Made by a program: the position numbers and the translations under genes | Shown here: positions 11,880-33,100 of the stretch, in pieces | Layout: each line of letters starts with the position of its first letter | How positions within the stretch are numbered: position 1 is the stretch's first letter | Source of the DNA: Beijerinckiaceae bacterium | GTDB lineage: Bacteria > Pseudomonadota > Alphaproteobacteria > Rhizobiales > Beijerinckiaceae | Assembly (NCBI GenBank): GCA_004564215.1 | Contig: CP024846.1 | Location: forward strand, 1,054,001-1,118,000 | Length of the DNA: 64,000 nt | Reading direction: 5' to 3' | Notes under the pieces: model-generated | What the model was told of the DNA's origin: nothing | What the model saw: the letters and a program-made list of their open reading frames with translations, nothing else | The model's database searches: none

Positions 11880-12214
11880 CGGCCAAGGATCTAACGCGCG
11901 AGAGGTAAAGGATAAAATTTCGTACCGACAACACTCCAGGATAGCGGAAATCACAGTCAAAGCAGATTTTGGGGTTCCTCCGCGCTCAATGTGGACGAAA
12001 TCCGCCCGGCCTCGCTCCCGGAAAATGCTCTCTATCTATTTGTTTTGAAAAACTTTTGCAGAACCCACGCCATCACCCTGAGGAAGCCCGAAGGGCTGTC
12101 TCGAAGGGCGCGAGGGCGCATCCTTCGAGACGGGCGCTTCGCGCCCTCCTCAGGATGAGGCGCCCTTTTCCCTATCGACGGGCTTGTGCGCTACACATGC
12201 TCAAGAAACGCGTT
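11880..12214. other. Non-coding gap holding a palindromic repeat
   Basis: This 335-base stretch separates the orphan putative nuclease gene from the end of the small coiled-coil gene on the opposite strand. Apart from the palindromic repeat at 12073-12158 I see no convincing frame. The short open frames here are shadows of the upstream gene or of the repeat itself. Confidence 0.6.
12073..12158. repeat. CCTGAGGA-bounded palindromic repeat, intergenic copy
   Basis: The ends CCTGAGGA (12077-12084) and TCCTCAGG (12147-12154) are inverted copies. Inside, TCTCGAAGG (12099-12107) pairs with CCTTCGAGA (12122-12130), and small GC hairpins fill the arms. The same signature (CCTGAGGAG, TCTCGAAGG, CCTTCGAGACGG, CTCCTCA) forms the element inserted in ileS at 31706-31875, so at least two copies occur in this window. 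Confidence 0.75.
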
Positions 12215-30137: not shown

Positions 30138-33100
30138 GGCCACCGTCCCAGCGCCTGTAGTTCCCGCAAGGCCTGCGCGTCGCGCGGCGTGACGCCGGGA
30201 AATTCAGGATCGGCTCCGACCAGCGGAGAAATTTTCCAGGACCTGGCGCATTTTCTTCCTTCGGCGCGCGCGCTTACGACCGCGACACCTTGGATGTCGT
30301 CCAGCCGGAAGGCGTCGGCCGGTCCCTCGCCGGCCTCGATGCCGATATTCGAGGTGATGCAGATTTCAGCGAAATCCACGGAGGCGAGAATGTCGCGCAG
30401 GCCGGCATCGACAATATACACGGTTGGCGCGGCTTCGAGCGAAGAACCGATCCGCTTCTGGGCCCGCTCGATCTCCAGGGCGCCGGTGACAACCGAGCGG
30501 ACACGGCGAATCCGCTCCCATTTTTCCGCAAGCGCATCGTCACGCCAGGAAGCCGGCACGTCCGGAAATCCTTCGAGATGCACCGAGACGGCTTCGGGGT
30601 AGCGAGATAACCAGGCTTCTTCCGAGGTGAAAACAAGAATAGGCGCGAGCCAACATGTGACGCAGCGAAAAATTTGCTCGATGGCGACGAGCGCGGCACG
30701 GCGCTTCTCGCTCGAGGGCGGATCGCAATACAGCGTGTCCTTGCGGATGTCGAAATAGAAGGCCGAAAGATCGCTGTTGAGGAAGGCCGAGAGTCGCGCG
30801 ACGACACGCTTATAGTCGAAGCGGAGGTAGGCATCTCGGATCTCGCCATCCAATTCGGCAAGACGATGCAGCATGAGTTTTTCGATCTCGCCCATCGCCT
30901 GCCAGCCTGTTGGATCGGCGGCATCGTAATGGGCAAGCGAGCCCAGCATCCAGCGGATCGTATTGCGGAGTTTCCGGTAGGTCTCGACGAATGTCTTCAG
31001 GATTTCCGGCCCGATGCGCATATCGTCGGAATAATCCGAGGCCGCCACCCAGAGGCGCAGAATATCGGCGCCGGCATCCTTGATCACGCTTTGCGGCGCA
31101 ACGACATTGCCAAGCGATTTCGACATTTTCTGGCCCTTCTCATCGAGAACGAAACCATGCGTCAGAACCGCGTCGTAAGGGGCGCGGCCACGCGTGCCGC
31201 AGGATTCCAGCAGCGAGGAATGGAACCAGCCGCGATGCTGGTCCGAGCCTTCGAGATACATGATTTCGTCCTGGCCGCCATCGCGTATGCGATCTATGCC
31301 GGCAAGGCCTGGGAAATGCTTCCGATCATCAAGGGTAAAGGCATGGGTCGAGCCCGAATCGAACCAGACATCGAGAACATCGTCGATTTTTTCGTATTTT
31401 TCCGGATCGTGTTCCGGCTCGAGAAAACGCGCGGCCGCGCCTTCCGCGAACCAAGCGTCGGCGCCCTCCTGTTCGAAAGCATCCGCGATGCGTCGATTAA
31501 CCTTGTCGTCGAGAAGGATTTTCTTCGTATCCTTGTTGACGAAGATCGCGATCGGCACGCCCCAGGCGCGCTGGCGTGAGACGACCCAATCCGGGCGATT
31601 GGCGATCATGCCGGTGATGCGGTTTTCGCCGGCGGCGGGATACCATTTCGTAATGGCGATCTCGCGCAGCGCGATCTCGCGCAAAGTGAGTGCATTTCGA
31701 AGTGCCCCCTCATCCTGAGGAGCGTGCGCAGCACGCGTCTCGAAGGATGAAGAACCGGCACTTGACCCCTCGCCCTTCGAGACGGCGCCAGCCAAGTCGG
31801 GCCTGCCCGACTTGGCCTCTGATGAACCAATGTCGGCTAAAGCCGACATTGGTTGCGCCTCCTCAAGATGAGGGGTCTCGATCACCTTATCGAGTGCAAT
31901 GAACCATTGCGGCGTGTTCCGAAAAATCAGCGGCTTCTTGGAGCGCCAGGAATGCGGATATTGATGTTTTAATTTTCCGCGCGCCACGAGATTGCCGGCC
32001 TCGATGAGGGCCTTAATGACCGCATCATTGGCGTCGCCTTTGTTGCCTTTATCGTCGATGACGCGGCGGCCGGTGAACCCCGGCGCTTCTTCGGTGAAGA
32101 AGCCGTCGGCATCGACGGTGTAGGGGATGCGCGTGTCGATGCCGCATTCAGCAAGAACGCGGCCATTCGCCATCCAGATGTCGAAGTCGTCGCGACCATG
32201 GCCCGGCGCGGTATGGACAAAGCCCGTCCCGGTCTCGTCGGTGACATGGTCGCCGTCAAGAAGGGGAACCTTGAAGTCGTAGCCGGCGAATTCTATCCCA
32301 AGCTTATCGTTGGCTAACGGGTGCGCGCATTCGCCAGCGGACAATATCGTCGGATCGATGGTGCCAAGCTGCTCGTATCCCTCAACGCGAGCGGCCTTGA
32401 ATACCTCGGGCGCTAGCTTCGCAGCGAGGATATAAGTCGCGCCAACTTTCGCCCAGTTGTCCGCAGATGCCTGCGTTACGCGATAGAGTCCGTACACGAT
32501 TTTCGATGAAAAACAGATTGCACGATTGGCAGGGATCGTCCACGGGGTAGTAGTCCAAATGACTACCGAAGTTGGAACTAACTGATCACCAACTGGAGAG
32601 AGCTTACCAAAATTGTTCCACTCGACTTTGTGCCAATCAACGGTACGACCTCTCCCTACCATTCGGCATGGAAAGGCGACCCATACCGCATCGCTGACAT
32701 GATCCTCATATTCGACCTCGGCTTCCGCCAGCGCCGTCTTCTCGACCACGCTCCACATCACCGGTTTCGAGCCGCGATATAGGGTGCCGTTCGCCGCAAA
32801 TTTCATGATCTCGCGGGCGATCTGAGCTTCGGCGGGATAGGTCATCGTCAAATAGGGATGGTCCCAATCCCCGGTCACGCCGAGCCGCTTGAATTCCTCT
32901 TTTTGCACCTCGACCCAATGATCGGCGAACACCCGGCATTCGCGGCGGAACTCGTTGATCGGGACGGCGTCCTTATTGCGACCTTTCGCGCGATAATTCT
33001 CCTCGATCTTCCATTCGATCGGCAAGCCGTGGCAATCCCACCCCGGCACATAATTCGAATCCTTGCCGAGCATCTGCTGGGAACGGGTCACCAGATCCTT

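Follow-up and report, generated by a model that had tools for sequence, protein, structure and literature searches.

Rickettsia palindromic elements (RPEs) are palindromic repeats of ~100-150 bp that lie in frame in conserved genes and are solvent-exposed in structure models (PMC3767692; PMC2229807); for RPE-4, RPE-6 and RPE-7, the choice between an insertional ‘hotspot’ and a common origin is left open in the available text (PMC3767692). Closer in lineage are the CGTC REPs, alphaproteobacterial repeats organised as inverted dimers and described as having no dedicated transposase (PMC3733652, Di Nocera 2013). Their defining features are an unpaired CGTC (or TGTC/CCTC) tag, a stem of 8-9 bp beginning with AT and a loop of 4-5 nt, mostly in head-to-head dimers (PMC3733652). 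Intragenic REPs are described there too, among them copies in DNA repair genes and in tRNA synthetases of X. oryzae, E. lithoralis and S. alaskensis; the synthetases are not further specified, and the main text of that paper makes no mention of ileS (PMC3733652). The same source describes different REPs at about one site of recB in two species of Xanthomonas (PMC3733652), and Br-REP1 of Bradyrhizobium, which is reported from intergenic regions, comprises three side-by-side palindromes of which the central one also occurs alone (PMC5082802). Among the listed matches from the main texts of open-licence papers, no publication on repeats in ileS was found; a paper on Brucella tandem-repeat typing (PMC1513380) was set aside as a candidate, the repeat's sequence word being part of a primer there and ‘palindromic’ being absent from its available text, and the other titles listed for words of the repeat do not concern bacterial repeats.

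Here we describe a palindromic element inside the isoleucyl-tRNA synthetase (IleRS) gene, ileS, lying in a 64-kb stretch of DNA (hereafter the window, meaning the whole stretch analysed) of a source genome that consists of one contig of 3.33 Mb (G000). A preliminary description of the window had drawn a parallel with RPEs. The parallel stands insofar as the palindrome is open in frame and sits in an essential synthetase of an order other than Rickettsiales, but the element is not, as was also claimed, unique to this ileS: the insert is common to relatives, and the same site hosts other repeat classes.

A composite palindrome inside ileS

The encoded protein matches TIGR00392 with 766 bits (cut-off 621) in two stretches, the best of which ends at residue 499; other TIGR00392 matches in the source genome score at most 52.5 bits, among the matches listed. 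The best solved IleRS sequence, 8c9e, aligns up to residue 495 and resumes at 565, with two chain residues between, and such matches to solved IleRS argue for an IleRS fold.

The element itself (Table 1) is a quasi-palindrome of 170 nt, with 17-nt inverted ends (31706-31722 and 31859-31875) that are 94% complementary, one mismatch included, and with two perfect inner hairpins of 12 bp (31791-31816) and 14 bp (31825-31854). Its size, position and ends are as first described; the inverted ends would suit one part of the definition of a MITE, which also asks for a target site duplication. Folding of the coding strand gives -120.9 kcal/mol, where shuffled sequences average -70.0 (sd 4.3; z -11.8; none of 200 shuffles equal). 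The frame had been said to stay open through the element, and so it does: only one of the three coding-strand frames is open, that of ileS, and two of six when both strands are taken together. Within the window, the nonamer TCTCGAAGG occurs eight times against 0.64 expected, and the two-arm signature reported at 12073-12158 is indeed present there; Rfam, at gathering scores, gave zero matches within the 64 kb.

What the preliminary description had missed is that the element is a composite, namely a two-armed REP-like repeat (class A) with another repeat (E) nested within it. It had also supposed that the insert has no counterpart in the family, which proved wrong, in that an orthologue (L041/L268) carries both class A arms at the same site without the inner hairpins. 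Where the window has the 66 nt of E, L268 has 3 nt, the arm 1 apex reading GGCGC-GAA-GCGCC on the same stems, so that E accounts for a net gain of 21 codons.

Table 1. Coordinates of the ileS element, its parts and related features in the window
Feature	Position	Strand	Basis and remarks
ileS, isoleucyl-tRNA synthetase, 1080 aa	30134..33376	-	TIGR00392 match; an upstream TTG start would extend it to 33427
Composite palindromic element (class A with nested E)	31706..31875	-	Inverted ends, fold z -11.8, open frame; corresponds to IleRS residues about 502-557
Class A arm 2 (3' arm in the mRNA)	31706..31749	-	Tip GCGTGC-GCA-GCACGC (+ strand); class A pattern match
Class A arm 1, 3' half	31766..31788	-	Pairing with 31855-31875; arm uninterrupted in L041/L268
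Class A arm 1, 5' half	31855..31875	-	Inverted ends; comparison with L041/L268
Nested E repeat, two hairpins (31825-31854 and 31791-31816)	31789..31854	-	Stands where arm 1 would have its GAA apex
Second class A copy in the window	12073..12158		Arm 2 tip differs from that of the ileS copy

In a structure model built with 50 diverse homologues (mean pLDDT 83.8, pTM 0.78), residues 503-560 form the longest stretch with pLDDT below 50 (blocks of 24-40, no secondary structure), a value also depressed by the shallow alignment over the insert. Its flanks, a strand at 482-493 and a helix at 565-575, are modelled well (blocks of 74-93). The insert is thus predicted to be disordered between well-modelled core elements, and probably adds a ‘floppy’ surface loop; at about 57 residues between the end of the strand (493) and the start of the helix (565), the loop is of the length originally proposed. 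A first model from 43 close homologues (pLDDT 58.8, pTM 0.37) was discarded as poor.

The IleRS loop in orthologues

A search at the level of the genus covered 15 genomes and yielded 12 readable loops (L269 lacks the motif; G102 and G105 are fragmentary), of which five carry class A arms and seven do not. Both arms are present in L268 (the same loop as L041, USCa_AHI), arm 1 only in M. aurea (L014/L271), and arm 2 only in L270 (the same loop as P0023, Methylocapsa D3K7). The window's arm 2 tip is identical in L041/L268 and L270, and was found in no fetched locus outside ileS; because this tip is common to the window, USCa_AHI and D3K7, and confined to ileS, the three most likely descend from one old, inherited insertion. 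The arm 1 tip, GGCGCGAAGCGCC, recurs in the copy at 12073 and at other loci and is therefore not diagnostic, so that M. aurea, in which arm 2 is absent, is linked to the other loops by spacer and length. From the last arm to the helix, the codons align without gaps in the window, L268 and L270 (after arm 2) and M. aurea (after arm 1). Furthermore, L268 contains two GAGGGT direct repeats 60 nt (20 codons) apart. At 44 aa, the loop of M. aurea is shorter than that of L268 (64 aa) by exactly this distance, and loss of one GAGGGT unit would shrink the longer loop to the M. aurea length. A single ancestral class A insertion is hence the most likely origin, most firmly so for the window, L268 and L270.

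Saying this, insertion appears to have recurred. M. silvestris (L095) has different tips, and its arm 1 is read in another frame (PLTLRSG..RLEGR), one that is seen in six of 117 proteins; from its sequence, this insert is most simply an independent class A copy. An earlier assignment of the PLTLRSG.. peptides to a separate repeat family was rejected for M. silvestris, where the DNA is class A in another frame; the other five such proteins are classed from peptide alone.

The wider set comprised the best 120 of 8000 scored homologues, from which 117 loops were read (P0018, P0048 and P0072, without flanking motifs, were left out). By peptide pattern, 57 of the 117 are repeat-derived (class A in 38, B in 15 and D in five, one loop having both A and D), where class B denotes the PHPNPPPQGGRE type and class D the GEGQGEG or PLPASGER type; these labels rest on peptides rather than DNA, and not all are strong (P0092, assigned to D, has a DNA fold z of +0.9 in L016). 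A further 33 loops are short (at most 26 aa) and without class, and the remaining 27 are of other kinds. Arm 2 of class A lies in the SSFET..PQDEG frame in 33 of the 117 loops and the pattern for the other open frame in none, while arm 1 takes its second frame in the six proteins already mentioned. An insert of this kind does therefore occur elsewhere, which the preliminary description had wished to see distinguished from a conserved domain; it behaves like a repeat, being present, one-armed or absent, and with 33 of 117 loops short and classless, and the others differing in class, arms and frame, a conserved IleRS domain was not found.

In an alignment of the 120 proteins (118 rows), no site of IleRS varies more in length than the loop (sd 18.6, maximum 72 aa). 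A second length-variable site at residues 239-267 (about 32576-32662 in the window) spans 0-51 aa (sd 12.5), with few repeat-like peptides among its 30 longest versions. We also noted a second class A peptide in P0090, near residue 818, whose arm 1 frame differs from that in the main loop of the same protein.

At the DNA level, we surveyed 170 loci (L019, L092, L093, L204 and L213 lack the motif), using a loop search that accepted flanks in any frame. Of the 165 loops placed, 164 have a length divisible by three and are stop-free, the exception being a mis-placed hit (L058); 123 of the 164 are 16-34 aa long. Among 158 unique loops read from DNA, 39 reach at least 35 aa, and 15 of these fold with z of -3 or lower, against three of 78 neighbouring control windows of the same length; the 24 that miss this mark include the class A loops L014 (-2.3) and L111 (-1.1), as well as L016.

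Across the family, a loop was read in 88 of 99 genomes (30 loci and 58 of 60 further stretches, two stretches having no motif; G055 and eight genomes with weak or short matches account for the others), with at least 35 aa in 26 loops and at least 60 aa in 12. Patterns of class D and class B occur in 72 and 75 of the 99 genomes respectively, with tens of copies in many, although class B counts in low-count genomes do not exceed the control. Genome G008 holds 59 D and 71 B pattern copies and yet has a loop of 23 aa, so repeat-rich genomes can keep short loops, and entry into the loop is not automatic. Taking these sequences together, the IleRS loop is a hotspot for repeats of several classes.

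Class A and E repeats beyond ileS

In the source genome, the class A arm pattern has 13 matches (six forward, seven reverse; control 0) that group into eight sites. Six of these, in four stretches, appear intergenic as judged from ORFs rather than annotation, and the copy at 12073 has no convincing gene, overlapping just a 161-aa TTG ORF of doubtful standing; the ileS copy thus appears to be the only clear genic one of the eight. Two opposed arms fit the strict pattern at five of the eight sites, and in the two-armed ileS copy one arm matches. The Y1 (RAYT) transposase, PF01797, by which RAYT/REPIN membership would be recognised, has no match in the source genome, while five of 14 control genomes were positive.

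The pattern is present in 27 of the 99 family genomes (control matches 0). Class A tips vary yet stay paired: 68 tips of at least 13 nt from fetched family loci have 39 distinct left arms, and a mean of 4.75 of 5 pairs form, compared with 2.45 in permuted tips (largest of 2000 permutations, 2.99). Differing as they do in sequence and length while remaining complementary, the tip stems look as if renewed by template switching.

A search with the class A peptide gave matches in 20 of the 99 family genomes. We read 12 of its 30 loci, one of them ileS itself; in six, class A falls within an ORF assignable to a known family, and in five it does not, so that no rate of genic class A is claimed. The in-frame hosts, identified by NCBIfam except L255 (by likeness to L241), are XdhA (L227), CobN (L238), UvrC (L243, with a relative of E), LigD (L241 and L255, near the end of the ORF) and DnaE2 (L250), where class A adjoins a CCTCCCC-type hairpin. 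In L250 (dnaE2, G073) a single in-frame insert contains both, and this site may be another hotspot.

As to E, its second hairpin (pattern AAGTCGGGN{2,8}CCCGASTT) is found in 22 of the 99 genomes, with control matches in two. Among 52 distinct copies of this hairpin read, 35 have another hairpin adjoining and 17 are single (both as called by script). The sequences flanking E pair at -20 kcal/mol or better in 31 of the 52, versus 32% of mismatched flank pairs, and in 29 of the 35 double-hairpin copies versus 46%; the observed mean pairing was reached by none of 10000 permutations, a figure that is not a probability since E copies are related. By eye, the hosts of E are class A arms (the window, L264 in uvrC, L306 and L312), CCTCTCCC-type hairpins (e.g. 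L325, L301 and L320) and the TTCCCGG type (L263 and L304). In family genomes, E (31789-31854 in the window; L256-L267 and L295-L334) is thus frequently located in the apex of a larger hairpin, the hosts belonging to several repeat classes.

We tentatively suggest, at slightly less than even odds, that E is a mobile double hairpin which inserts at the apical loops of other REP hairpins and in this way parasitises repeats; the 17 single hairpins, and the 21 of 52 copies without strong flank pairing, speak against a strict nesting rule. Were this reading true, the ileS copy would have caught E in a host repeat within an ORF, an orthologue still showing the apex without it, and the IleRS loop would record three layers, those of the gene, the class A repeat and the E repeat. 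A repeat that nests in apices would in turn point to a hairpin-directed mechanism of insertion, in a genome without a Y1 transposase match.

Origin of the insert and its place among known repeats

Synthesising these observations, the explanation that we favour, at a probability of roughly 80%, is an inherited REP-like insertion with E nested in it, translated as a tolerated loop at a permissive hotspot. A selfish REP-like palindrome would have entered ileS, most likely once, in an ancestor of the Methylocapsa/USC-alpha group, its phase leaving a hydrophilic frame open; the class A insert would then have been inherited, trimmed or lost, and in the source genome E would have landed in the apex of arm 1, adding 21 codons. 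The mRNA is presumably translated straight through, such that IleRS would bear a disordered loop of about 57 residues. Neutral tolerance is most likely: the loop is located where orthologues vary too (16 to 93 residues), which is why it can be tolerated, and because the site is permissive, other repeat classes may enter it independently and make it a hotspot.

An alternative that we consider rather unlikely, though the strongest of the rivals, is that ready-made loop alleles move between species by recombination, and that this movement, not repeated insertion, causes most of the scatter. On a quick tree of the 117 proteins (31 of 114 inner branches drawn open), the class A0 label (29 rows) needs 23 changes, of which starred branches force 17, where shuffled labels need 26.0 on average and 27 of 500 shuffles come as low, a weak clustering that suits such exchange; later class calls need 28 changes for A, 11 for B and five for D. 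All loop classes jointly need 59 changes versus 71.3 when shuffled, with none of 200 as low, and are thus clustered. The tree is compatible with fast turnover of the loop, but does not let gain, loss and transfer of alleles be counted separately. For some pairs, the two halves of the protein disagree (84% and 97% for P0011/P0024), which likewise speaks for recombination, and the non-repeat alleles ..DTLRNRALKEI (Methyloferula) and ..DTIRNRALREI (M. polymorpha) recur in distant rows. Against this, different tips, two frames and different classes at one site need separate insertions, and an element distinguishes M. ligni from P0090, the two being 93.9% identical in the rest of the protein; among other close pairs whose loops differ are P0014/P0119 (93.9% identity) and P0028/P0082 (92.8%). 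We record separately that a non-palindromic allele (..DTLRNRALKEI and alike; L106, P0027, P0057 and P0096) in distant IleRS rows suggests loop exchange.

Inherited insertion with neutral tolerance also has to be set against an adaptive role, with either the peptide or the mRNA hairpin acting as a regulator of IleRS or of its synthesis. We regard this as improbable. The hairpin is very strong, and arm 2 matched in its hydrophilic frame in 33 of 117 loops and in none in the other open frame, but purging of basic or hydrophobic inserts would produce such a preference as well, and unrelated genes also read arm 2 in that frame. Close relatives do without the insert, loop lengths and sequences vary widely, and several unrelated repeats serve in its place. 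Perfect hairpins this strong can stall ribosomes or confuse assembly, and from such general knowledge one might suppose that the stretch is untranslated (through bypassing or RNA processing) or an artefact of assembly. That is very improbable here, as bypassing would not require the frame to be kept in every placed loop bar the mis-hit, and the same arms recur in other genomes while the source genome is one contig.

Three aspects are new: an essential synthetase harbours a hotspot for several repeat classes, deletions can be traced in copies shared between relatives, and one repeat nests at hairpin apices. Tips, frames and classes help to separate a hotspot from the divergence of one insert, a question that the available text of the Rickettsia work leaves open (PMC3767692), and they separate here one probably inherited class A copy, with trimming, from separate insertions of other copies and classes. 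The group has cultured strains, in which the mobility, tolerance and cost of intragenic palindromes are testable.

By analogy, the ileS element works like RPEs and intragenic REPs, kinds already known. As in RPEs, a palindromic repeat lies in frame in conserved genes (a likeness of description), whereas the order is another one, the hosts are relatives of free-living methanotrophs, the element is a nested composite and two reading frames are used. Class A resembles CGTC REPs in its alphaproteobacterial setting and, by eye, in an arm start of CCTC+AT, and may share their arrangement as inverted dimers, but it has long variable tips instead of loops of 4-5 nt. The grouping of palindromes is similar to that of Br-REP1, from which the sequence differs, and compared with recB of Xanthomonas the IleRS loop has taken up three repeat classes, in many lineages, within an essential enzyme.
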